A DNA stretch of 64,000 nucleotides, from positions 248,001 to 312,000 of the forward strand of contig NZ_CP014606.1 of NCBI RefSeq assembly GCF_001584725.1, written 5' to 3'. This DNA comes from an endosymbiont 'TC1' of Trimyema compressum (GTDB lineage: Bacteria; Bacillota; TC1). Below are positions 164 to 20,129 of the stretch, in pieces. Position 1 is the stretch's first letter, and each line of letters begins with the position of its first letter. Both the position numbers and the translations under genes were made by a program. The notes beneath the pieces are model-generated. The model had not been told where the DNA came from. It saw only the letters and a program-made list of their open reading frames with translations, and searched no databases.

Positions 164-1833
164 ATGAAAAGTGAAAAAATGAAGTCAGGAGTAGCTAAGG
201 CTCCCCATCGCTCATTATTTAAAGCATCTGGCTTAACAGATGAAGAGATAAAAAGATCTATAATTGGTATTGTAAATTCCCAAAATGATATTGTTCCAGG
301 ACATATTCATTTAGGTGCAATAGGTGAAGAGCCGTTAAAGCTGGGGTTCGTATGGCTGGCGGCGTGCCTTTACAATTTCATACAATTGCAGTTTGTGATG
401 GCATAGCTATGAACCATACTGGTATGAAATATTCCCTTATAAGTAGAGAGCTTATTGCAGACACAATTGAAGTAATGGCCAGTGCTTATACCTTTGATGG
501 ATTAGTATTTATTCCAAACTGCGATAAAGTTGTGCCAGGCATGTTAATGGCGGCTGCCAAACTGAACATCCCTTCTATTTTCATTAGTGGTGGTGCTATG
601 TTACCAGGAAAACATAAAGGTAAAAAATAAGTTTAACAGATATGTTTGAAGCTGTTGGTTCAGTAGCAGCAGGTAAAATTGATGAATCTGAACTCTGTGA
701 CATGGAAAATTCCGCCTGTCCTACTTGTGGTTCTTGTTCAGGGATGTTTACAGCAAATTCTATGAACTGTTTAAACAGAAGTTATTGGTATGGGATTACC
801 AGGCAATGGTACAATACCAGCCGTTTATTCAGAGCGAATCCGTTTAGCAAAAACTGCAGGTATGAGAAATATTAGATTTAGTTGAAGAAGATGTGAAACC
901 AAAAGATATTATGACTGAAGGGGCTTTCCATAATGCAATTGTTGCCGATATGGCTCTTGGTTGTTCAACTAACACTGTTTTACATTTACCAGCAATTGCT
1001 CATGCAGCAGGATTTGATGTTGGCTTTGAGACCCTTAATGATATTGCTCAAATTACACCTCAAATTTGTAAGTTGGCACCTGCAGGAAATCATTTTATTT
1101 CCGATTTATATGAAGCCGGTGGTATCCGAGGGGTTTTAAAATCTCTTGATAATGCTGAAGGATTGATTAGAAGAGAATGTTTAACCGTTAGTGGTAAAAC
1201 TGTTGGAGAGCAAATTGATAAAGCTTATATTTCAGATTCAGAAGTAATTCGCAGCAAAGAAAATGCTTATAGTCAAGATGGTGGATTAGCAATTCTTTGG
1301 GGTTCATTGGCTCCAGAAGGTTGTGTTGTTAAAAAAGGTGCTGTAGCTGAAGAAATGATGATTCATACTTGACCTGCTAGAGTTTTTGAATCAGAAGAGG
1401 AAACTGTAGAAGCTATTTTTAATAAAACCATAAAAGATGGGGATGTAATAGTAATTCGCTACGAAGGTCCTAAAGGAGGACCAGGTATGAGAGAAATGCT
1501 TTCACCAACAGCTGCAATTGCTGGTATGGGACAAGATAAGACTGTCGCCTTGATACAGATGGCCGTTTTTCAGGCGCTACAAGAGGAGCATCTATTGGAC
1601 ACGTTTCACCTGAGGCAGCATCTGACGGACCAATAGGTCTTGTAGAAGAAGGGGATTTAATTGAAATAAATATTCCTAAAAATTCACTTAATTTATTAGT
1701 AGAAAAATCAGTGCTAGAAGAGAGGGAGAAGCATCTTAGAAAGAAAGAAAATAATTTAGCTATTGGCTATTTAAAAAGATATGCTTCATTAGTAACTTCA
1801 GCTAATACAGGAGCGGTGTTTAAAGATGAGTAA
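164..1833 (+). pseudogene. ilvD: dihydroxy-acid dehydratase (IlvD), multiply broken
   Basis: Remnant of the enzyme that dehydrates dihydroxy-acids in isoleucine/valine synthesis. Family motifs are spread over different frames: the NCDKVVPGM iron-sulfur segment, [30 protein letters not shown], and [10 protein letters not shown] near the C-terminus. The lesions I see are frameshifts near 350, 630, 772, 866 and 1540, plus a TGA at 1370-1372 where the family has Gly before PARVF (GGA to TGA). The start ATG follows GAGGTG. The end overlaps the ilvB start by 8 bases, an old operon arrangement. With six lesions the gene cannot be functional. Confidence 0.93.
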
Positions 1834-3400
1834 TAAGTTATACCCGGGTGCAGATATTATTTTAAAATCACTTGAAATGGAAAAAGTTAAAATAGTTTTT
1901 GGCTATCCAGGAGGCAGTGTGTTGCCATTATATGATTCCTTATATCATAATGATAATATTAAGCATATATTAACACGTCATGAACAAGGCGCAGGTCATG
2001 CAGCAGATGGTTATGCTAGGTCAACTGGTAATACAGGCGTAGTTTTTGCAACTAGTGGACCTGGTGCTACAAACTTAGTAAGGGCAATAGCAACTGCGCA
2101 AATGGATTCTATTCCAATGGTTGTTGTTACAGGACAGGTACTGAGAGACGCTATTTAGGTAAACAAGCTTTTCAGGAAGCTGAAATTGTAGATATTGTTA
2201 AACCTATAACGAAATATGCAGTAATTGTACAGCGTGTTGAGGATTTAGCAAAAGAGATTAAGAAGACTTCTAGAATTGCTAATACAGGTAGAAAAGGACT
2301 TGTATTAATTGATATTCCTAAAGATGTAATGATTGATAAGTGTCAATTTATGTATCCTTTAGAATCTCAGTTTAAAGCAGAACGCTGGGGAGAAAGTGAA
2401 AATAGATACCAGCGCAAGCAGGAGGTGTTCTTAAAAAAGCGAAAAGACTACTTCTTTTTGTCGGTGGTGGTGCTAAAGATGCAGTAGATGAAGTTGAGAA
2501 GTTGGCTGAAAAGCTGAAATCACCCGTTATCTATAGCTTAATGGGCAAAGGTGTTTTAGATGATAATCATCCATTAAATATTGGTATGGTTGGCATGCAT
2601 GGTACGGGTGCTGCAAACTATGCAGTTCATCATTGTGATCTTTTATTTGCAATAGGTGTTCGTTTTGATGATAGACAGACAGGTGATGAAAATTTCTTTG
2701 CTAAAAGTGCAAGAATTATTCATTTAGATATTGATAGAAAAGAATTTAGTAAAAATATTAGAGCCGATGTTGCTTTATATGATGATAGTGCCTTAGGTTT
2801 ATTTAAACTTTTAAGAGTTATAAAAAGAGAGGATTTTGAACCTCAAAATCCTTGGATTGATCAAATCTCTGAGTGGCAACACAATCATCCATTAAAATTT
2901 GAAGCTGAAGGTAGCATTAAGCCTCAAGAAATTCTTAATGCCATAAATATACTTACAAAAGGCGCTGCTATTATGACAACAGAAGTAGGGCAACATCAAA
3001 TGTGGGCGGCCCAGTATTTTAAAACAAATGACCCTAAGAAGTTTATAACTTCGGGTGGTTTAGGAACTATGGGATTTGGTTTACCTGCATCGATTGGCGC
3101 ACAATTAGGCAATCCTAAAACATTAACTATAGCCTTAGCTGGAGATGGCAGCATTCAAATGAACAGCCCCAAGAGCTAATGACTATTAGTGCTTGTAAGC
3201 TACCCATTAAAATTGTTGTTGTTAACAATAAGAGTTTAGGTATGGTGCGCCAGTGGCAAAAACTCTTTTATGAAGAAAGGTATTCACATACTTTATTTGA
3301 AGCAGAATCTCAACCAGACTTTATGACTTTAGCTAGAGCTTATGGCATTCCAGGTGTGCAAATTACTGAAAGAGAAAGGTTAGTTGAAGACTTAGAGACG
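1826..3400 (+). pseudogene. ilvB: acetolactate synthase large subunit (IlvB), broken and 3'-truncated
   Basis: Remnant of the thiamine-diphosphate enzyme for the first common step of branched-chain amino acid synthesis. The N-terminus reads [13 protein letters not shown] and [15 protein letters not shown], with the ThDP-contacting Glu in the second motif. GDGSIQMN and NNKSLGMVRQWQ mark the C-terminal ThDP domain. Frameshifts occur near 2140 (after TGQV), 2425 and 3165. At 3400/3401 the gene runs into an IS fragment, so roughly the last 70 codons of the family length are gone. It follows ilvD with an 8-base overlap, so both steps were one operon and both are lost. Confidence 0.93.
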
Positions 3401-3957
3401 GCCTTAATCTTAGATGGGCCAATACGTCTCTTAGTAAGATGACAAATCTCCGAGAATAAGCTGACGGAGTTTTTAATTCTCAATAGTTCTAGGAGAAAGT
3501 TTTTCCGAAAAGTATTTGTAATAGGAGCTGCGGTTCACTTTAAGGACATGACAAAGAAAAGAGATAGCGTGCTGAAAACGAAGGGTATGAACAGCCATTA
3601 ATCTTTGTCTGAGTGAGGCGTGAATATGGCAATTGCTTTTTTTAAAATGATATTTTCCTCCTAGAGTCGAGCATTACGCTTTTGAAGATCCTTAATCTGC
3701 TTAGCGGTTAGAATAGTATCATCATCAATTCTAACCTGAGAATAAAGTTTAATCCACTTGTGTAAAGCAGACATGGAGACACCATATTCTTTAGAAAGTT
3801 GGGATTGAGTTTTACCGTTTTGGTGTAAATTAACAATACTTTTTTTAAATTCTTCATCGTATTTCTTGTAATTATTCATAATTTTATCCTTTCTTATGTG
3901 TCTACTTATTTAAAACATGTTTCACTTTTTCCTGTCTACTTTTTTAGTATATGTCCA
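3401..3957 (-). mobile_element. IS3-family element, left-end fragment (copy A)
   Basis: 557 bp matching the first 557 bp of the complete copy at 5795-7059, in reverse orientation. The outer end is the terminal TGTCCA (complement of TGGACA). It carries orfA (3879 down to 3661, with an in-frame TAG after NARL) and the start of orfB. The inner break is inside orfB and abuts ilvB directly at 3400. A one-sided deletion therefore removed both the rest of the IS and the end of ilvB. Confidence 0.93.
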
Positions 3958-5794: not shown

Positions 5795-7059
5795 TGGACA
5801 TATACTAAAAAAGTAGACAGGAAAAAGTGAAACATGTTTTAAATAAGTAGACACATAAGAAAGGATAAAATTATGAATAATTACAAGAAATACGATGAAG
5901 AATTTAAAAAAAGTATTGTTAATTTACACCAAAACGGTAAAACTCAATCCCAACTTTCTAAAGAATATGGTGTCTCCATGTCTGCTTTACACAAGTGGAT
6001 TAAACTTTATTCTCAGGTTAGAATTGATGATGATACTATTCTAACCGCTAAGCAGATTAAGGATCTTCAAAAGCGTAATGCTCGACTCTAGGAGGAAAAT
6101 ATCATTTTAAAAAAAGCAATTGCCATATTCACGCCTCACTCAGACAAAGATTAATGGCTGTTCATACCCTTCGTTTTCAGCACGCTATCTCTTTTCTTTG
6201 TCATGTCCTTAAAGTGAACCGCAGCTCCTATTACAAATACTTTTCGGAAAAACTTTCTCCTAGAACTATTGAGAATTAAAAACTCCGTCAGCTTATTCTC
6301 GGAGATTTGTCATCTTACTAAGAGACGTATTGGCCCATCTAAGATTAAGGCTCTTCTTTCCTATGACTATGGCATCAACATCAGTATTGGTAGAGCGAGC
6401 CGCCTGATGACTGACATGAATCTTCCTAAAATGCCTACTATCAAACTTCGGTTTATTCATCCGAGGTCTATTCCCAATTTTGATTGCCCTAACTACCTAA
6501 ATCAAAATTTTAATGTTCCTCAGCCCAATCAAGTCTGGGCTAGTGACATTACCTATATTAATTTAAATGCCTCTTTTGCTTATCTCTGTGTTATTATGGA
6601 TTTATTTTCTCGTAAAATTATTGCTTGGAAGCTCTCTCTTAAAATTGATACTTCTCTTGTTAAGGATACTTTTATCAAAGCCTTTTATTCTCAAAAACCT
6701 TCTACTTCTCTTATTTTTCATTCTGACAGAGGTTCCTAATATACTTCTTTTATCTTTAGAAAGCTCCTTGATTCTTTTGGTATCATTCAATCTTTTTCTA
6801 AGCTTTCTCATCCTTGGGACAATGCTGTCGTTGAGTCCTTTTTAAATATATGAAAAAAGAAGAAATTCTTCGTAGGTCTTTTTCTTCCTTTGCTCAAATT
6901 AAGCTTTCCTGCTTTGAACACATTGAGGGCTTCTACAACCCCCTATACGTCCCCACTCTGCTAATAACATTCTTTCTCCTAATTCCAAAGAAGACTATTT
7001 TTTCACTTCTATTAAAACTTAATTTCACTTTTTCTATCTACTCTATTGACATTCTTCCA
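5795..7059 (+). mobile_element. complete IS3-family element (copy B)
   Basis: 1265 bp with imperfect terminal inverted repeats: left TGGACATATACTAAAAAAGT, right end (complement) TGGAAGAATGTCAATAGAGT, then shared AAAAAGTGAAA. It has the two-frame transposase layout of the IS3 family. Three bases flank each side as TTT and AGC, so no target duplication is seen. It has cut an InlB-repeat gene on its right. The other complete copies (31064-32328 and 57898-59162) are the same length and encode identical peptide segments. Confidence 0.95.
5873..7022 (+). pseudogene. IS3-family transposase OrfA/OrfB, disabled
   Basis: OrfA (from 5873) is an HTH protein: [22 protein letters not shown], then a coiled-coil leucine segment interrupted by TAG at 6089-6091 where Glu is expected; the frame would otherwise end at 6154. 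An A-rich slippery run lies near 6109-6115. OrfB (from ATG 6154) is the DDE integrase: WASDITYI (first Asp), SDRGS (second Asp), NAVVESF (Glu). It carries TAA at 6277, a frameshift near 6300, TAA at 6737-6739 (Gln in DRGSQYTS) and frameshifts near 6845 and 6945. No active transposase can be made without readthrough or suppression. Confidence 0.92.
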
Positions 7060-7350
7060 AGCTAATGTATATGTTATGTCAATTTTTTCCCATACCGCAT
7101 ACAAAGTAACATCACTTGTTCCCATTGTAAATAGTGCTTCATCAGTATACTCTATATTTCCATCTTCTTGTGTTGACCAACCTATAAAAGTATTTTCATC
7201 ACTTAAAAATTCATTTTTTGGTAAATTTTGACTTTCTCTTTCAATAAGGGTAATAAGGTTCATTATTCCTTGTCCTGATGTTCCATTAAAGCTTACTGTA
7301 TGCTTATTTTGTTGCCATTGGGCATATAAGGTTGTATCATAACCTAGCAT
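7060..7350 (-). pseudogene. InlB/Listeria-Bacteroides repeat surface-protein fragment
   Basis: About 95 residues with two copies of the InlB B-repeat signature: TTLYAQWQ followed by TVSFNGTSGQG, and FIGWSTQEDGN followed by VTLYAVWEK. Such repeats are found in large cell-wall or secreted adhesin-type proteins of Firmicutes. Both ends are missing: the downstream side is cut by the IS at 7059 and I see no start, signal peptide or anchor upstream. It is a fragment of a once much longer gene. Confidence 0.75.
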
Positions 7351-7465
7351 TGTTGATTATAAAAAAGTTTCAATAGAAGACTTTTATACAATATCTAGTT
7401 TAACACAATTAGTAAATCATAATATGAGGAATAAATATCATGACCAAAAAAATATGATTCCTTGA
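7343..7465 (+). pseudogene. C-terminal remnant of a gene translationally coupled to the ABC exporter
   Basis: An open frame with no start, ending ...QKNMIP and a TGA that overlaps the next ATG as ATGA (7463-7467). The coupled stop/start indicates a former operon gene directly upstream of the exporter. The 40 visible residues contain no cysteine and no recognised domain. I cannot say whether it was a precursor peptide, a second enzyme or something else. Confidence 0.4.
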
Positions 7466-9159
7466 TGAAATATTTACACTTAATTGTAAAGTCAGCCAAA
7501 TGGTCACTTCTTGGTTCTTTTGTTATTATGGTAATTGTTATGGTAATTAACATAGCATTGCCAGAAGTTATAAAACAGATTATTGATATAGGAATAGGTG
7601 AAAATAATAAAAAAAGTCCTTATTATCCTTTGTGCAACATACATTGTAGGAATAATATTTGCTAATGGGATTAATTTATTTTTAGATAATTTTTATGAAA
7701 AACTCAAATTAAAAATATCGACTAAATTAAAATTGAGCTTACTTAATAAATTATCAAAATCAGATGGATACTATTTATCTCGCCTAGAAACAGGAGATGT
7801 TTTGCGAATTTTAGATAATGATATTTTTCAAATAGAAAATTTTGGTATAAACATTATTTTTGAATTTATTACTAATGCGATAACAGCTATTGTTGTGTTT
7901 TTTATCCTAATGTTTATTAGTCCAATCTTATTAGGAGTTGTTTTAATAATTCAGGTTTTTACTTTTGTAATTCAAGATAAGATATCAAAAAAAGTAGAAG
8001 CAAGAATAAAACATATAAGAAAAATTGCAGGTGAACAGTCTAATCTTCAAGAACAATTTGTCTCAAATATAAAAGGAGTAACATTAACTAATGCGACAAG
8101 ATATTTTGAGAAAGTAATAAGAAAAAGCAAGGTGATTTTGTAGATGAATCCAAAAAAGTTAATTTATTAATTGCATTTCACTTACAATTTGCTAATACAA
8201 CAAGTTCAATAATTGTCATAGTTACATATTTTTTAGGTGGCTTAATGGTTATATCCAAGCAAATAACATTAGGATAATTAATTGCATTTGCACAGTATAT
8301 CACACTATTAATTGCTCCATGTATGTACTTTATTAAAGCAAATATTCAAATTAAACAGACTAATGTATCTTTGGATAGAATATATTCTGAATTTGACAAA
8401 ATTAAAATTTGCCAAGATTTAGCTAATAGTATTGAATTAAAAGATAATATTCAAAAAATAAAATTTTCAAATATTAATTTTGATTATGGAAAAGATGAGT
8501 GCACATTAGATAATTTTAACTTGGAAGTTTGTAAAGGAGAAACTGTTGCTCTCGTTGGAGAGAGTGACTGTGGAAAATCAACAGTGTTAAATCTTTTATA
8601 TCGACTTTGGGTGCCTAAAAGTGGAGAAGTTTTAATTAACGAAAAGAACTTTGAGTTATATACTATAAAATCAATTAGAGAGAAAATCTGCATTTTAAAT
8701 CAAGACCCTCTACTGTTTAATGCTAGCATACGGGAAAATATTCTTCTTAATAAATCAGAATTTTCAAATGACGGATTAAATCGATTTTTTTGGAAAACAG
8801 GTGTTGATTTATTAATGACTGAGCATCCGATGACAATAGGAGAACGGGGAAATAAGTTATCTGGTGGCCAAAAACAAAGAGTAGCAATAGCTAGGGCTAT
8901 GTTATCAAATTGTGATGTAATTATTTTTGATGAATCAACTTCTTCATTAGATAATATATCACAAAAAGAATTAATGACAAACTTAGAGGATTTATTTAAA
9001 GATAAAATTGTAATATTTATTGCTCATAGAATGGAAATAGCCAAATTTTCAGATAGAATTTATGTTATGAATGATGGAAGAATAATTGAAAGTGGCACTC
9101 ACAGTAATTTAATGAGGCAAAATGGGTTATACAAAAAAATTAATGAGGCACAAATATGA
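7465..9159 (+). pseudogene. ABC exporter (fused membrane and ATPase domains), broken
   Basis: A half-size ABCB-type exporter of about 565 residues. Six membrane segments occur in the first two thirds. The nucleotide-binding domain has Walker A GESDCGKST, signature LSGGQKQRVAIARAM, Walker B VIIFDEST and the H-loop in FIAHRME. There are frameshifts near 7612 and 8110, and a TAA at 8275-8277 (TLG-stop-LIAF, probably GAA to TAA). The conserved Gly in Walker A (GESGCGKST) is Asp. No C39 peptidase domain is present. It precedes a radical SAM gene by 13 bases, suggesting export of a modified peptide. Confidence 0.85.
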
Positions 9160-9172
9160 AAGGAAATTATAA

Positions 9173-10418
9173 ATGGTTATTGGGAATCATGTCGAAATAA
9201 TTGTTAATTTAGGGAAAGTTATTTTGGCAAATCGTGAAACTTGTGGTTGGATAAGAGTTTCAAATGAAGTTTATGAAATTTTGAAACAAATATTAGAGTT
9301 GGAAAATATTGCAACAATGAGTAAAGATTTATTTGATTCAGAAGAGGATTATTCATTTGCAAAAAGCACACTGGATAATCTTATAGAAATGAATATTCTT
9401 GTGCCAGAGAATTACCACAAAGTTGAAATGCATAAAATTATATCATTGCAACTGACAAATAATTGTAATTTGCGATGTACGCATTGCTGTGTTGATGCAG
9501 ATAATACAGTCTACTGTATAGATGATTTGCTATTTGAGCAGTGGCGCCTTATCATTGATAAAGAGTAATTGAATGGAATCCCGTAAATATAATGCTCAGT
9601 GGTGGTGAGCCAATGTTTCAGCAAGATTTTATAGAAATTTTATCATACCTATATGAACGATATGAAGGGAAAATAATACTTTCTACTAATTCGTTACTAA
9701 TCAATAATGATAATATTGCTGAACTTGTCAAAATGTGCGATAGTTTCGAAATAAGTGTTGATGGAATTGATGAATCTACATGTGCTCTTGTGAGAGGTAA
9801 AGGGGTATTTAATAAAGTATGCCAAAAAATCAATTTGCTGAAAGAAAGTGGGGCAAAGAACATAAATTTATCAATGGTTTTTTCAGATAAAAATGAGCAT
9901 TTAATGAATGCCTTTCGTGAGTTGAATGTAGCGTTAGGGACAACGCCAATTTGTAGAATCTTTTCTGCTATAGGCAGAGGCGCAAATAACCGTTTTATTT
10001 TTACTGAAAAAACTGAAGACGATATATATTTCCAAAAGAATACTTGAAACCAAATGGAGAACCATTTGGAATAACGACTTGTTCTGCAGGGAAAAATGAA
10101 TTAATTGTTGGAAATAATGGAGAGGTATATCCTTGTCCTAGTTATATGAATGAAAATTTTTCTATGGGAAATCTTTTGAATTTCAAGAAAATAAGTGATA
10201 TGCTAAAAGCCGATACTAATGATTATGTTTGTGAGCATGTTGGAAAAATACATCCTGCTAATTTAGAAGAGTGCTTAAATTGCAATGTAAAGTTGTTTTG
10301 TTGGACTTGTCCTGGGGAATTTAGAGATATAAAAACAAAAAAAGCATTCCAAAAAAGATGCGCTATTACAAAACCGATGTTACAAGAAAGGGTGTGGGAA
10401 AGCAAAATAATGTATTAA
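9173..10418 (+). pseudogene. radical SAM/SPASM peptide maturase with PqqD-like N-terminus, two frameshifts
   Basis: Residues 1-85 resemble a PqqD/RRE peptide-recognition domain. The radical SAM core follows with CNLRCTHC (CxxxCxxC iron-sulfur cluster) and MLSGGEP. The C-terminal SPASM region is Cys-rich (CSAGKNELIVGNNGEVYPCPSY, then CLNCNVKLFCWTCPGE, then CAITKP). Frameshifts lie near 9565 (between IDKE and VIEWNPVN) and near 10035. The start has AAAGGAA upstream. The layout (RRE-rSAM-SPASM next to an ABC exporter) is that of ribosomal-peptide maturation loci. I find no intact precursor peptide. Confidence 0.85.
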
Positions 10419-14390: not shown

Positions 14391-14472
14391 TTTTGTAAAA
14401 TCATAAAAAGTTTTTAAAGAGTATTGTAAGATGCTGTGAATTGATTTACAATTAAATTAACAAACTAAATAA

Positions 14473-14617
14473 ATAAGAGTTTTTAGTATTGGGAAAATGG
14501 TGAGAATCCATTACAGCCTCCGCTACTGTAAACACGGATGATGTTCTTAATATGCCACTGTCTCGGATGGGAAGGCAAGAACAGAATAGGATGTGTAAGT
14601 CAGGATATCATACTACA
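14473..14617 (+). promoter_or_regulatory. cobalamin riboswitch
   Basis: The order of conserved blocks is GGGAA..GGTGAGAATCC, ACAGCCTCCGCTACTGTAA, GCCACTG, GGGAAGGC, then AGGATG..AAGTCAGGA, as in the B12 element. It sits about 100 bases upstream of the importer operon and is followed by a terminator hairpin, so it should reduce btu expression when cobalamin is plentiful. Confidence 0.92.
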
Positions 14618-14671
14618 GGCTTAGACTGTATATTTCGGCAGGAGGTATATGACAGTTAGGTTAGTGATTTT

Positions 14672-14706
14672 AAAATCCTCTTCCATTTTGGAAGAGGATT
14701 TTTTAT
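14672..14706 (+). terminator. riboswitch-controlled terminator
   Basis: AAAATCCTCTTCC, loop, GGAAGAGGATT followed by TTTTATTTTA, between the cobalamin riboswitch and the btuF ribosome site (GGAGGG). It is the expression platform. Confidence 0.88.
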
Positions 14707-14723
14707 TTTAGGAGGGAAAGAAA

Positions 14724-15641
14724 ATGAAAAAAGTTTTAATGACCATTGTATTAATAATGGGGTTTGCTATTTTTTTAGGGGGGTGTGGCAATAAGGAAAG
14801 TGGTTCAGTAAATGGTGTGAATTATCCCCTGACTATTACAGATAGTACTGGAAGCCAAGTAACTATTGAAAAAGAACCTAAAAAAGTGGTGTCATTTTCA
14901 CCAGTGGTTACAGAAACTGTAACAGCCATTGGCAAGAAAAATGTTTTAGTAGGAAGAACCTCTTTCTGTGATTATCCGCCATCAGTAGAGTCTATTCCAG
15001 TCGTTGGGAATTTAACAACGCGCAATATGGAATTAGTGGCAGGGGCTGAACCTGATGTTGTTTTAGCATCGGCATTTGTTGATGAAGGGACTAAGGAACA
15101 ATTAAAACAGCTTGGGATACCATTAGTAGTAACATATTCTTCAGAGAGTTTTAATGGTGCTTATGATGATATTGAAATGATAGGAAAAGTACTTAATGGA
15201 AAAGATAAAAGCAAGGAAGTTATTGACGGAATGAAAAGCAAAGTTTCCTCTGTGGAAACTAAAGTTAAAGAGACTGGGAATAAACCTAGTGTTTATTATG
15301 TTTTAGGCTTTATTAAAGGTGATTTTACAGCAACTGGAGAAACATTTATCAATGAAATGATTACTATGGCTGGTGGGACTAATATTGCTGCAGATGGTAC
15401 AAGGTGGAGCTACAATAAGGAAAGCTTAATTGAAAAAAATCCTGATATTTTAATATTAAATAATATGGCAGGGACCATTGATGATTTGAAAAATACGGAG
15501 GGTTATAAGGATTTAGACGCTGTAAAAAATAATAAAGTCTATTTAATTGATAGTAATCTTATTAATAGGGCTGGACCTAGACTGGCTTTAGGCTTAGAAG
15601 CTCTAGCAGCAATTATTCATCCGGAGATTTTTAGCAAGTAA
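14724..15641 (+). CDS. btuF: cobalamin/corrinoid ABC transporter substrate-binding lipoprotein
   Basis: A 305-residue lipoprotein. The signal peptide ends in the lipobox LGGC (Cys about residue 21). The periplasmic-binding fold of the BtuF/FecB class follows, with EPKKVVSFSPVVTETV near the start of the mature part, EPDVVLAS in the first lobe and IEKNPDILIL in the second. Ligand assignment rests mainly on the upstream cobalamin riboswitch and the adjacent cob genes, since iron-siderophore binders share this fold. It is the first gene of btuFCD-cobT; the start has TTAGGAGGG. Intact. Confidence 0.88.
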   Translation: MKKVLMTIVLIMGFAIFLGGCGNKESGSVNGVNYPLTITDSTGSQVTIEKEPKKVVSFSPVVTETVTAIGKKNVLVGRTSFCDYPPSVESIPVVGNLTTRNMELVAGAEPDVVLASAFVDEGTKEQLKQLGIPLVVTYSSESFNGAYDDIEMIGKVLNGKDKSKEVIDGMKSKVSSVETKVKETGNKPSVYYVLGFIKGDFTATGETFINEMITMAGGTNIAADGTRWSYNKESLIEKNPDILILNNMAGTIDDLKNTEGYKDLDAVKNNKVYLIDSNLINRAGPRLALGLEALAAIIHPEIFSK

Positions 15642-15661
15642 AGAAAGATAGGTAGTGTGTT

Positions 15662-16714
15662 ATGGGTACATTGGAAGGTAGACTAAAATTAAATATAGCT
15701 TTTTTTGTGAGTGTAGTTGCCTTGATTTTACTAATGCTTATAGCTATTATGTTAGGAGCAGCAGATATTGGTTTAAAAGAAGTTGTAGATACTGTATTTT
15801 CTAAAATACCCTTTGTTAATGAATGGTTTTCTGGAGACAGTGTTTCTAAAGGAGCAGCACTAATACTTTGGAAATTAAGAATACCACGGGTTGTTCTAGC
15901 CGCAATAATTGGCGCAGGGCTTTCTGTAGTCGGCGCTGTTTTTCAAGGAGTTTTTAAAAATCCAATGGCGGATCCTTTTGTTTTAGGTGTTTCATCTGGA
16001 GGTGCTTTAGGAGCTACAATAGCCATTGTTTTAGGGAGTCAACTAATTATTAGCTCACTATTTGTACCTGTTTTTGCTTTTGTTGGGGCATTGATTACAA
16101 TTGCAATTATATTTATTATTACTCGTTTAAGTAGAACTCAGGATATGTCTACATTGCTTTTAGCAGGCGTTGCTATGAATTTCTTTTCAACTGCCTGTGT
16201 TTCAATGCTTATGTTTATGAATCATGATGAGATTAATAAAATTATCCTCTGGAATATGGGGAGTTTAGCAGGGGCTAGTTGGCAACAAGTCGTATTATGT
16301 TTACCTTTTGTTTTAATAGGTAGTATTGTTTTTCTTATTTTTAGAAGGGAATTAAATGCCTTTCTTTTAGGCGATGAACATGCTCAGAGTTTTGGTATTC
16401 CTGTTAAACTTGTACGGAAAATACTAATTATTGTATCTGCTTTGATTATAGGTGTTATTGTATCTATGTCCGGTATTATTGGTTTCGTTGGTTTAATTAT
16501 TCCCCATATAACCCGCCTAATTGTGGGGAGTAATTATAAGGTGTTATTACCTTTTTCTATTGTTTATGGAGCTGCATTTTTAGTCTTTTGTGATACAGTA
16601 GCTCGTTTAATGGTACTGCCTAGTGAAATGCCTGTTGGTTCAATTACCGCCGTTTTTGGAGCGCCTTTCTTTGTTTTTCTTTTGGTTAAAAATAGAAGGG
16701 GGCGGCAGAGTTGA
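15662..16714 (+). CDS. btuC: cobalamin ABC transporter permease (FecCD family)
   Basis: A 350-residue permease of the BtuC/FecCD family with about ten hydrophobic segments. Characteristic blocks are LRIPRVVLAAIIGAGLSVVG, then FKNPMADPFVLGVSSGGALGA, then the C-terminal GIIGFVGLIIPHITRLIVG, which carries the coupling region to the ATPase. It is intact, begins 20 bases after btuF and overlaps the next start by one base (TGATG), so the two are coupled. Confidence 0.9.
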   Translation: MGTLEGRLKLNIAFFVSVVALILLMLIAIMLGAADIGLKEVVDTVFSKIPFVNEWFSGDSVSKGAALILWKLRIPRVVLAAIIGAGLSVVGAVFQGVFKNPMADPFVLGVSSGGALGATIAIVLGSQLIISSLFVPVFAFVGALITIAIIFIITRLSRTQDMSTLLLAGVAMNFFSTACVSMLMFMNHDEINKIILWNMGSLAGASWQQVVLCLPFVLIGSIVFLIFRRELNAFLLGDEHAQSFGIPVKLVRKILIIVSALIIGVIVSMSGIIGFVGLIIPHITRLIVGSNYKVLLPFSIVYGAAFLVFCDTVARLMVLPSEMPVGSITAVFGAPFFVFLLVKNRRGRQS

Positions 16715-17517
16715 TGAATAAAAATACTATGGTGAATATTGAATCTTTAAAATTTAAATATCATCAACAACAAGTTTTAAATGATGTTAATTTTAAGGTA
16801 GAAAAAGGGAAGCTCTATAGTATTATTGGACCTAATGGGTCTGGTAAGACAACATTATTAAAAATCATTGCTAAACAACTGGAAACCCATGTTGGAAAAG
16901 TAGAGGTTGCAGGAGAATTAATTGAGTTTTATAAATATAAAGACTTTGCAAAGCAGGTTGCTTTAGTGCCTCAAAATACAAGTATTGATGCAGACTTCCG
17001 AAATGAAGAAGTGGTTTTAATGGGCCGAATGCCTTACTTAACTCCTTTAGCAAGAGAATCAAAAAAAGATTATGATATTGTTCAGGAGGCTATGATTAAA
17101 ACCAACACAGTACACCTTAAAAATAGGCTAGTTGAACAGATTAGCGGTGGTGAAAGGCAGAGAATAATCTTGGCTAGAGCACTGGCTCAGGCAACACCTA
17201 TTATGCTTTTAGATGAACCTGTTTCTCAATTGGATATTCAGCATCAAATTGGCATTATGAATTTATTAAGACAATTAGTTGATGTTGAAGGTCTAACAGC
17301 AATTGTTGTCCTTCATGATTTAAATTTAGCCAGTCAATATAGTGATGAGCTATTACTATTAGATAAGGGTAAGCTTGTGTCTAAGGGTATTCCGGAAACT
17401 GTATTAAATCCTAAATTATTGAAGAATGTTTATGGGCTTACGGCTACTATTATAGAGAATCCTGTTACCAAAAGACCTTTTATTTTACATGTTACCTGTA
17501 AGGAGGGAGAAAAATGA
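16714..17517 (+). CDS. btuD: cobalamin ABC transporter ATP-binding protein
   Basis: A 267-residue ATPase of the FecE/BtuD type. Walker A is GPNGSGKTT, the signature ISGGERQRIILARAL, Walker B PIMLLDEPVSQLD and the H-loop VVLHDLN. I placed the start at ATG 16714, where it overlaps the permease stop; a TTG one codon earlier is possible. Its stop overlaps the cobT start (ATGA), so importer and cobalamin-assembly genes were a single transcript under the riboswitch. Confidence 0.9.
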   Translation: MNKNTMVNIESLKFKYHQQQVLNDVNFKVEKGKLYSIIGPNGSGKTTLLKIIAKQLETHVGKVEVAGELIEFYKYKDFAKQVALVPQNTSIDADFRNEEVVLMGRMPYLTPLARESKKDYDIVQEAMIKTNTVHLKNRLVEQISGGERQRIILARALAQATPIMLLDEPVSQLDIQHQIGIMNLLRQLVDVEGLTAIVVLHDLNLASQYSDELLLLDKGKLVSKGIPETVLNPKLLKNVYGLTATIIENPVTKRPFILHVTCKEGEK

Positions 17518-18205
17518 TTTCATTTGAGAAAGTTAAAAAAGAAATTAATTCTGTAAATTATGAAGTTGGAGAGGCTATGACACAGCAGATTGATGGCTTG
17601 GCAAAACCCTTGGGTAGTTTAGGCTATTTGGAGAAAATGGCTGTTAGAATCAGTCGGATAACAGGGAAATTAGATAATCAATTGAAACAAAAGGCTATGA
17701 TTGTTATGTGTAGCGATAATTGTGTTTTTGAAGAGGGCATTGCCTCAACACCTCAAGAGCTTGGAAGAATGTCAATAGAGTAGATAGAAAAAGTGAAATT
17801 AAGTTTTAATAGAAGTGAAAAAATAGTCTTCTTTGGAATTAGGAGAAAGAATGTTATTAGCAGAGTGGGGACGTATAGGGGGTTGTAGAAGCCCTCAATG
17901 TGTTCAAAGCAGGAAAGCTTAATTTGAGCAAAGGAAGAAAAAGACCTACGAAGAATTTCTTCTTTTTTCATATATTTAAAAAGGACTCAACGACAGCATT
18001 GTCCCAAGGATGAGAAAGCTTAGAAAAAGATTGAATGATACCAAAAGAATCAAGGAGCTTTCTAAAGATAAAAGAAGTATATATCCAAGGTTGCCCTCTT
18101 CTTTTTAAGATAATGGATAGTGCTTTGGCACTAATGAAAGGTATGGGAACTCTTGATGGTGTAGCAATGGAAAAAGAGAACATGGTTGATTTAAGGAAAC
18201 AATAG
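17514..18205 (+). pseudogene. cobT: CobT (DMB phosphoribosyltransferase) split by an IS fragment
   Basis: CobT makes alpha-ribazole phosphate for the lower ligand of cobalamin. The first 83 codons (17514-17761, including DGLAKPLGSLGYLEKMAVRI) and the last 40 (18083-18202, GCPLLFKIMDSALALMKGMGT ending VDLRKQ) are present in different places. A 321-bp IS fragment lies between them. About 230 residues of the usual 355 are missing, including the catalytic region, so this is insertion plus deletion rather than simple insertion. The start overlaps the btuD stop. Confidence 0.85.
17762..18082 (-). mobile_element. IS3-family element, right-end fragment (copy E)
   Basis: 321 bp identical in layout to the right end of the complete element (equivalent to 6739-7059 of copy B, reversed). 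The terminal TGGAAGAATGTC is intact at 17762, and the fragment breaks just downstream of the DRGS motif region of orfB. The break abuts the cobT C-terminus. This is the mirror case of copy A, where the other end survived. Confidence 0.92.
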
Positions 18206-18220
18206 AGAGAAGTGAGATAA

Positions 18221-18796
18221 ATGGGCAAAATTGTTTTAGTAACCGGCGGTGCCAGAAGCGGAAAAAGCAGTCAAGCAGAACGTTGGATGAGGGAGCTGGA
18301 GTCAGATGGCAAGTCTGTTACATACATAGCTACTGGTATTCCTTTTGATGAAGAAATGGTAAACAGAATAAAAAACATCAAGCCATGCGACCGAACCATT
18401 GGCAAACAATAGAAGCTTATAAAGGTTTTTCTGATTTAGTGCCACTCAAAGGTCATGTTCTATTGGATTGTCTAACAATAATGGTGACCAATTTATTTCT
18501 CGAAGAAATGGAAGATATTGTAAATTTTGAGGATTTAGATACAGCTAAAGAAGAGCTGATTGAAGCGCTGGTTGATAAGGAAGTCCAAGCATTAATTGAA
18601 TTTTTAAGAAAAATTAATGGTACTGCTATTCTAGTAACCAATGAAATTGGTTTAGGTCTTGTGCAAGAATATAGAAGCAGTCGATTTTTTAGAGATTTAG
18701 TAGGTCGAGTCAATCAGAAGATTGGTAGTATAGCTGACACTGTTTATTTTTGTATTTCCGGAATACCTATGAAGGTTAAGGGGGCGGATTTTTTGA
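18221..18796 (+). pseudogene. cobU: CobU (adenosylcobinamide kinase/guanylyltransferase), frameshifted
   Basis: The bifunctional enzyme that phosphorylates adenosylcobinamide and adds GMP. The P-loop GGARSGKSSQAE is at the N-terminus; NEIGLGLVQEYRSSRFFRDLVGRVNQ and VYFCISGIPMKVKG follow in a second frame. The shift occurs near 18378 in an A-run. There is no stop at the expected end: the frame continues into CobS through GATTTTTTGAAG. One base less in that run would give a TGA overlapping a TTG start of cobS, so the ancestral stop was probably lost by an indel. Confidence 0.87.
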
Positions 18797-19558
18797 AGTG
18801 GATTAAAAGATTCATTATGAGTTTACAATTTCTAACGAAAATTCCTATTCCCATTCGGATAAAATTTAATGAAACAGATTTTGGAAAATGTGCAATGTTA
18901 AGTCCTTTAGTAGGGGTTATTTTAGGGACTATATTAGCATTAATTTATTATTTATTTTCTTTTCTTTTTCCGCCACTTATTGTTGGTTTTATTTGTTTAA
19001 TAATTTATGTATTTTTAACGGGTGGTCTTCATTTAGATGGTTTGGGAGATACTTTTGATGGGGTGTTTTCCTATAGGGAAAAAGATAAGATTATTGAGAT
19101 TATGAAGGATAGCCGTTTAGGAACCAATGGCTTGTTGGCAATCTTATTTATTTTAATATTAGATGGTATTTTTATTGGTTTTTTACCACCGTCCATAGGC
19201 GGCGCTATAGGGATTTTTCTAATAGCCTGTTGCAGGTCGTGTAAGTTGTCTTGTGACAGGGGCTACAAACAACTATATATATCGAAGTTATGGTATGTCG
19301 AAAGATTTTGTTTCCTATGCTAATTTAAAGAATTGTTTTCCAATGCTTTTAATAAGTGCAATTATTTTTGTTGTTTGTTTTTCTTATGGAGGCTTAGTCA
19401 TTTATAGTATTATCTTTGTTTTTGCGTTTTTAGCCAGTCGATTTTTCAGCAGAAAAATAGGTGGTGTATCTGGAGATACTATTGGAGCTGTTGTAGAATT
19501 AACTCAACTTGTTTACCTTATTAGCTTATTTCTTTTACAACGAGGAGGCTTTTTATGA
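18793..19558 (+). pseudogene. cobS: CobS (cobalamin 5'-phosphate synthase), frameshifted
   Basis: A membrane enzyme that joins adenosylcobinamide-GDP with alpha-ribazole. FIMSLQFLTKIPIPIRI is the usual N-terminus and GGLHLDGLGDTFDGVFSYREKDKIIEIMKDSRLG is the catalytic block with its acidic metal-binding residues. The rest is hydrophobic. A frameshift near 19220 separates the last 100 residues. The start is probably TTG 18793 behind GGGGGCGG. It is fused in frame to CobU in the present sequence and overlaps cobC by four bases. Confidence 0.87.
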
Positions 19559-20129
19559 AAATATTAATTATTATTCGCCATGGTATGAAAAGTGCTAATA
19601 AAGAAGGTCGTTACTGTGGTCATTTGGATTTGCCTTTAATTGAAGAGGGAATGGCTATTTTAAAAGAGCCTAAAAGTTGCTTGCGAAAAGAAAATATTAG
19701 TCAGATTATTTCGAGTCCATTAATTAGGGCAGAAGAAACGTCAAATTTGCTTTTTCCAGAGCAGAAAGTCAACTTAAAGAAATAAATTTTGGTCTTTTTG
19801 AAGGTTTAAGCTATAGTGAAATTAGCAATCGATTTCCAGAGGAACAAAAGGCCTGGAGTGAGGATTTTCTGAATTTTAGCTTTCCTGAAGGAGAGTCTTT
19901 TAAGAAATTTTATAATAGAGTCGGCAAATATGTAAATCAGTTGATAGAAGATTTTTTAAAGACAGAGGAAGAAACTATAGCCGTGTTTACCCATTTAGGG
20001 GTTATTCAGTGTATGTTAATCCATATTTTAAAATTGGATGATAGTATGTTATGGCGTTTTAAAGTTAGAAATGGCCGCTACATGAAAGTGGGCTTGGATC
20101 AATCAGGATATGGTTATTTAAGTTGGTAG
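19555..20129 (+). pseudogene. cobC: CobC-like alpha-ribazole phosphatase, frameshifted
   Basis: A histidine-phosphatase-superfamily protein of about 190 residues in the cobalamin gene cluster. The active-site motif reads IIRHGMKSANKEGRYCGHLD; the usual RHGET has Met-Lys in place of Glu-Thr. A frameshift near 19779 separates INFGLFEGLSYSEI and the second His region (VFTHLGVIQ). The start overlaps cobS (ATGA). Together with broken cobT, cobU and cobS, it means the whole late assembly branch is disabled. Confidence 0.83.

Follow-up and report, generated by a model that had tools for sequence, protein, structure and literature searches.

The CLI_3235/CcpM systems (TIGR04065-TIGR04069), represented by SacP23 of Paenibacillus polymyxa (PMC10731318) and by a cluster of Roseburia intestinalis (PMC4573289), are operons that encode a Cys-rich peptide together with a radical-SAM/SPASM maturase, a subtilase, an exporter, and an acyl-carrier-related part. 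The maturase is a single TIGR04068 enzyme, and a separate carrier-related protein, TIGR04069, is found beside the subtilase and the exporter (PMC10731318, PMC4573289). PapB, known from the ranthipeptide freyrasin with its six Cys-X3-Asp motifs, forms crosslinks within Cys-X3-Asp and tolerates Cys-Xn-Asp with n = 0-6 (PMC9413430). Two-maturase sactipeptide systems such as thuricin CD contain two radical-SAM enzymes, small Cys peptides, and an exporter (PMC12093266). QhpE, from quinohemoprotein amine dehydrogenase maturation, is a leader-type protease beside a radical-SAM maturase, and its substrate is an enzyme subunit.

The locus compared here with these systems is located in a window of 64,000 nucleotides from the endosymbiont 'TC1' of Trimyema compressum, corresponding to positions 248001-312000 of contig C1 of its genome (G000; 1.62 Mb, two contigs). 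Positions 7343-10418 of the plus strand of the window consist of three pieces: a 40-codon open end, an ABC exporter, and a radical-SAM/SPASM maturase. A preliminary description of this region as a decayed peptide-modification locus holds. The exporter and the maturase were both identified, frameshifts appear in each, and the exporter contains an additional in-frame stop. The locus is a dead remnant that makes nothing now. Very probably it is what is left of a ribosomal-peptide operon that, in the live version, encodes a precursor, two maturases, an S8 subtilase, and an MsbA-type exporter.

The maturase pseudogene (family rSAM1; 9173-10418, plus strand) was characterized using Pfam, alignment, frame-aware tblastn, and a tree. 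Three frames are needed to read it (9173-9562, 9562-10038, and about 10030-10418), and it therefore carries two frameshifts, near 9562 and near 10030. Pfam matches were obtained for Radical_SAM (3.2e-19) and SPASM (1.3e-5). The CxxxCxxC motif and the Cys-rich SPASM tail first noticed in the letters are present as CNLRCTHC and as SPASM cysteines that align with those of intact relatives. The window maturase groups with the maturases of the related cassettes, with an identity of 43% to that of Clostridioides mangenotii; in the tree, it falls in a seven-row clade (support 98/95) with homologues from Tepidibacter, C. mangenotii, Velocimicrobium, and Eubacterium. None of the curated radical-SAM family models of NCBIfam was reached. 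The scores were 84 bits for the mycofactocin maturase TIGR03962 (cut-off 265), of which it is not a member, 77 bits for StsB (cut-off 625), and 55 bits for TIGR04068 (cut-off 500).

The N-terminal part of the maturase (9173-9445, plus strand) had been labeled a PqqD-like domain for precursor recognition. By sequence this label found no counterpart, as neither a PqqD match in Pfam nor a PDB sequence match was obtained for the N-terminus. It fared better by structure. Residues 1-95 were modeled using AlphaFold together with 36 relatives (pLDDT 82.5), and the model was compared with the PDB using Foldseek. The first six matches are all RRE domains, with further ones lower, and the best match has an E value of 0.025 and a probability of 0.99. 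The RRE matches are TbiB1, lasso B1, CteB, PbtF, and SuiB, from lasso-peptide, thioether-peptide, and thiopeptide systems. The assignment of the predicted domain as PqqD-like/RRE is therefore moderately supported.

The exporter pseudogene (7465-9159, plus strand) is of the MsbA type, with a TMD and an NBD and without a peptidase domain. It shares 37% identity over 569 residues with the exporter of the Romboutsia sedimentorum cassette (locus L072). In frame-aware tblastn, its reading frame shifts near 7610 and again near 8128, and a TAA at 8275-8277 interrupts it in frame. The open frame that precedes the exporter (7343-7462) is real, as had been proposed for the last 40 codons of a lost gene. 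Its first stop is the TGA at 7463-7465, which has one base in common with the exporter ATG at 7465-7467. The ATGA given in the preliminary description as the coupling between the two genes is indeed present. It is formed by a second TGA directly after the first, whereas the first TGA overlaps the ATG by a single base.

Relatives of the locus were sought with the maturase. No match was obtained when genome contigs were scanned with the window maturase sequence alone. Scanning 84,980 genomes with an alignment instead yielded 62 loci, to which three plasmids were added, mostly from Clostridia and Paenibacillus; the best matches are those of Clostridioides mangenotii (43%) and Tepidibacter (42%). 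There is no close homologue of the maturase in the genomes searched of the window's family, order, and class, and therefore no near-identical intact copy is known. Plasmids of Clostridioides difficile and Paraclostridium sordellii encode full-length homologues at 34-35% identity. Each of the three plasmid loci also has, as neighbors, genes for a second radical-SAM protein, an S8 peptidase, and an ABC exporter. A gene for 52-59 residues that lies between them is annotated in two of the three; in the other, a candidate of 58 residues lies farther upstream.

Intact versions of the cassette are found at about 50 other bacterial loci. In a scripted census of 63 loci, maturase 1 was counted in 52 and the second, PapB-like maturase in 49; 40 had the S8 protease, 49 the exporter, 48 the precursor, and 35 all five parts. 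Members with an intact set include Clostridium oryzae (L059), Tissierella simiarum (L050), and Paenibacillus oleatilyticus (L075). The pairing of maturase and exporter is thus also conserved in relatives, and the original reading of a radical-SAM-modified ribosomal peptide system was right in kind. The commonest arrangement begins with maturase 1 and continues with maturase 2, the peptide, S8, and the exporter. The order in the window (S8, exporter, maturase 1) is seen only in Clostridiaceae bacterium M8S5 (L064), where precursor, S8, exporter, maturase 1, and maturase 2 follow one another in agreement with what remains in the window, and where the peptide gene lies directly before S8. The L064 maturase forms a long, uncertain branch of the tree. 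In the closest relatives (L042 and L043), the maturases are upstream of S8 and the exporter, whereas the window maturase is downstream.

The precursors in relatives are 50-80 residues long and contain Cys, with several Cys residues in 47 of the 48 aligned sequences. The leader has the form KI-x-K-x-DK-x-E-x-L-V-x-x-Q. The core is usually CxxDC, or more generally C-x-x-[DNE]-C, in which the last two positions are nearly invariant. Two to four precursor copies are present per locus in L045, L056, L073, and L092. No credible match to NCBIfam or Pfam was obtained for 27 precursors, and the live peptide family appears to be unnamed in both. Searches of the open literature yielded CcpM-type clusters and no description of this cassette. 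The absence of a precursor from the window, already noted from the letters, was confirmed: the best match of a 43-sequence precursor profile has an E value of 0.067 and is inside an unrelated gene. No small precursor gene was found beside the maturase in the window or in its own genome, which makes the locus a remnant and not a working member of the family.

The 40-codon tail (7343-7465 with its stop, plus strand; 5' part missing) was compared with the genes that precede the exporter in relatives. It falls on the C-termini of three S8 proteins in an alignment, and a profile of 40 S8 proteins matches it with an E value of 3.8e-7, calculated for one sequence. An HMM of the last 60 residues of the relatives' S8 proteins scores 27.0 bits with the tail. 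Among 1001 control C-termini from other open reading frames of the same loci, the best unrelated score is 15.5 bits, and the only controls above it are four genes of 303-328 residues, which inspection showed to be divergent S8-like genes. Directly 5' of the exporter, about 24 of the 40 loci carry a gene for an S8 subtilase of roughly 330 residues, and the two genes overlap by four bases in L047, L059, L062, L075, L084, and L089. The profile match and the same position before the exporter identify the lost gene as the predicted leader protease. The assignment leans on profile and position together because the tail offers only about 25 informative residues. By these comparisons, the gene truncated before the exporter is an S8 protease and not the precursor, and the window retains the C-terminal end alone of an S8 protein with a carrier-like domain.

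A free carrier protein had been the first idea for the tail and was abandoned, as the relatives show a subtilase end. It is improbable that the tail belonged to a free-standing acyl-carrier-related protein of the TIGR04069 type instead of a fused subtilase. Such a protein would suit the acyl-carrier-like character of the tail, the separate TIGR04069 of CcpM systems, and locus L079, where a free-standing carrier-like gene adjoins an exporter. The tail, however, has no match in NCBIfam, TIGR04069 included, and an alignment of 22 proteins from the cassettes shows the domain as part of the subtilase, with the fused gene directly preceding the exporter. Less probable still is that the lost gene was the small precursor itself. 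A precursor gene would fit the short open frame ahead of the exporter and its translational coupling; the tail nevertheless matches the cassette S8 C-termini from the same position, contains no Cys where nearly all of the aligned precursors have several, and gives nothing with the precursor profile.

The S8 protease is thus the preferred identity of the lost gene. The preliminary description had expected the gene 5' of the exporter in relatives to encode a small peptide, and this expectation failed. Its wider reading was to fall only if the upstream partner were a large unrelated protein and no small peptide were conserved nearby. A small Cys-containing peptide is kept at 48 of the 63 loci, and the peptide-modification reading therefore stands.

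In the relatives' S8 proteins, the catalytic triad (Asp15, His54, and Ser199) is invariant in 22 sequences, and the model of the Tepidibacter protein (pLDDT 91) has a subtilisin fold. A helical domain makes up the C-terminal 80 residues, and its profile matches in the PDB are almost only acyl or peptidyl carrier proteins, among them 2lki (3.5e-7) and the ACP 6kxf (0.0013). At the site of the carrier-protein DSL motif, most members read GLNYDN or similar in the alignment, and the phosphopantetheine serine therefore appears to have been lost. The best NCBIfam match of the cassette S8 proteins is QhpE (79-91 bits), which they resemble as leader-type proteases beside a radical-SAM maturase. They remain below the QhpE cut-off of 165, and the match covers the protease part alone and not the carrier-like domain. 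Divergent S8-like genes of 303-328 residues are present in the cassettes of L085, L086, L087, and L088; in L085-L087, the GHGT around the catalytic His is replaced by SHGE. At L079 (873-1127), the free-standing carrier-like protein keeps a DS motif and adjoins Cys-rich peptides as well as an exporter, and it may represent the carrier-like domain in unfused form.

The operon parts listed above for the CcpM systems are all present in the cassette. It differs from them in having two maturases instead of one and a carrier-like part that is fused to the subtilase, and a TIGR04066 protein was not seen in the NCBIfam scans made. The second maturase scores 150 bits against TIGR04068, which again is below the cut-off, and TIGR04065 gives no match among the precursors of relatives. 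The best match of the second maturase is PapB (NF047865) at 189-219 bits, short of the cut-off of 340. As in PapB substrates, Cys is close to Asp in the cassette precursors, in a CxxDC spacing unlike that of freyrasin. The tolerance of PapB for n = 0-6 would fit the conserved CxxD and is a lead by analogy. Unlike the PapB system, the cassettes always have a second, RRE-bearing maturase near; the window has lost its PapB-like enzyme. The resemblance to thuricin CD lies in the two radical-SAM enzymes, the small Cys peptides, and the exporter. The cassette departs from it in precursor sequence, in usually having one precursor type per cassette, and in its S8 protease with a carrier-like domain.

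For the live family, the chemistry, the order of steps, and the bioactivity of the product are those that we infer from these comparisons. The precursor leader would be bound via the RRE domain of maturase 1. The core would then be crosslinked by maturase 1 and the PapB-like radical-SAM/SPASM enzyme, probably through thioethers between Cys and a neighboring residue. The S8 subtilase with its acyl-carrier-like C-terminal domain would cut off the leader, and the product would leave through the MsbA-type exporter, which itself has no peptidase domain. In the window, all that remains is the 40-codon end of the protease together with broken copies of the exporter and maturase 1. The chances seem evenly balanced that the locus is the fossil of a widespread, unnamed ribosomal-peptide class in which two different radical-SAM enzymes act on a CxxDC core and release depends on a fusion of subtilase and acyl-carrier-like domain, the latter lacking the phosphopantetheine serine and serving as a docking or recognition module and not as a carrier. 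Many Clostridia and some Paenibacillus carry the cassette, plasmids of C. difficile and P. sordellii among them, and none of the curated NCBIfam models tested is reached by its precursors, maturases, or protease. Two features, the recurrent combination of two different radical-SAM maturases and the unusual subtilase/carrier-like fusion, provide testable handles for peptide discovery, and they account for a part of such operons that would otherwise be mistaken for the precursor.

The losses are wider than the precursor, since the protease body and the second maturase were also not detected in the genome. A search of the endosymbiont genome, conducted without a positive control there, found no S8 protein; the corresponding search for a precursor, also without a positive control and for short peptides that are easily missed, found none. 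No second, PapB-like maturase was found in the genome, where the responders were a SCIFF maturase, the window maturase, and one weak match. On the same contig, more than 25 ribosomal and translation genes in the ribosomal-protein operon are unbroken over 18 kb, and a SCIFF six-Cys precursor and its 473-residue maturase are intact (L110, 8531-10137; about 1246531-1248137 of contig C1). The breaks at the locus are therefore decay and not sequencing noise. It is highly unlikely that the living cell has intact genes and that the frameshifts arose during assembly, even though the lesions are often at A-runs and long-read assemblies make such errors, given these unbroken genes, the structural junction rather than an indel that cuts the protease, and the failure to find the second maturase and the precursor. 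Several stops at usual Gln sites suggested a reassignment of TAG and TAA to Gln, and this was rejected because ordinary stops terminate the ribosomal genes and the stops in question occur together with frameshifts.

Immediately 5' of the tail, the sequence changes at a breakpoint at about 7343-7352, where the protease remnant is fused head-to-head to a fragment of an InlB-type protein with Listeria-Bacteroides repeats (7012-7350, minus strand; PF09479, 2.5e-9). An IS3-like insertion sequence (about 5797-7059, plus strand) is located within this fragment and was delimited by its terminal repeats and by comparing the flanks between copies. Both had been reported as abutting the locus; both are real, and neither is part of the operon. 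Removal of the precursor by a rearrangement at about 7343 is plausible, and the 5' part of the operon was probably lost through one rearrangement near this position.

Several observations concern the relatives. In the cassette of Thermoanaerobacterium saccharolyticum (L100, 7959-11158), the maturase and the exporter are in short pieces and a precursor match is left; decay of the operon therefore happened more than once. On the P. sordellii plasmids (L036 and L037), agr-like genes for AgrB, a cyclic lactone autoinducer peptide, a LytTR regulator, and a sensor kinase adjoin the cassette, which suggests control by cell density there. Each of these two cassettes has two maturase 1 paralogues.

Much gene decay is seen in the endosymbiont genome outside the core genes. 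At 164-3442 of the window, ilvD and the gene for the large subunit of acetolactate synthase are each split into several frames. At 14452-17517 and 17514-20129, a cobalamin riboswitch precedes an intact set of cobalamin-type binding protein, permease, and ATPase, and the cobalamin biosynthesis genes that come next are broken or cut by the insertion sequence. The IS3-like element is present in contig C1 in 30 near-full-length copies with no more than two differences each, and in all 30 the transposase is interrupted by identical in-frame stops and frameshifts. The orfA site reads TAG at 34 of 35 places, with a lone GAG in a truncated copy. A seemingly dead transposase has apparently spread, for which readthrough, action in trans, or an intact copy at another place would account.
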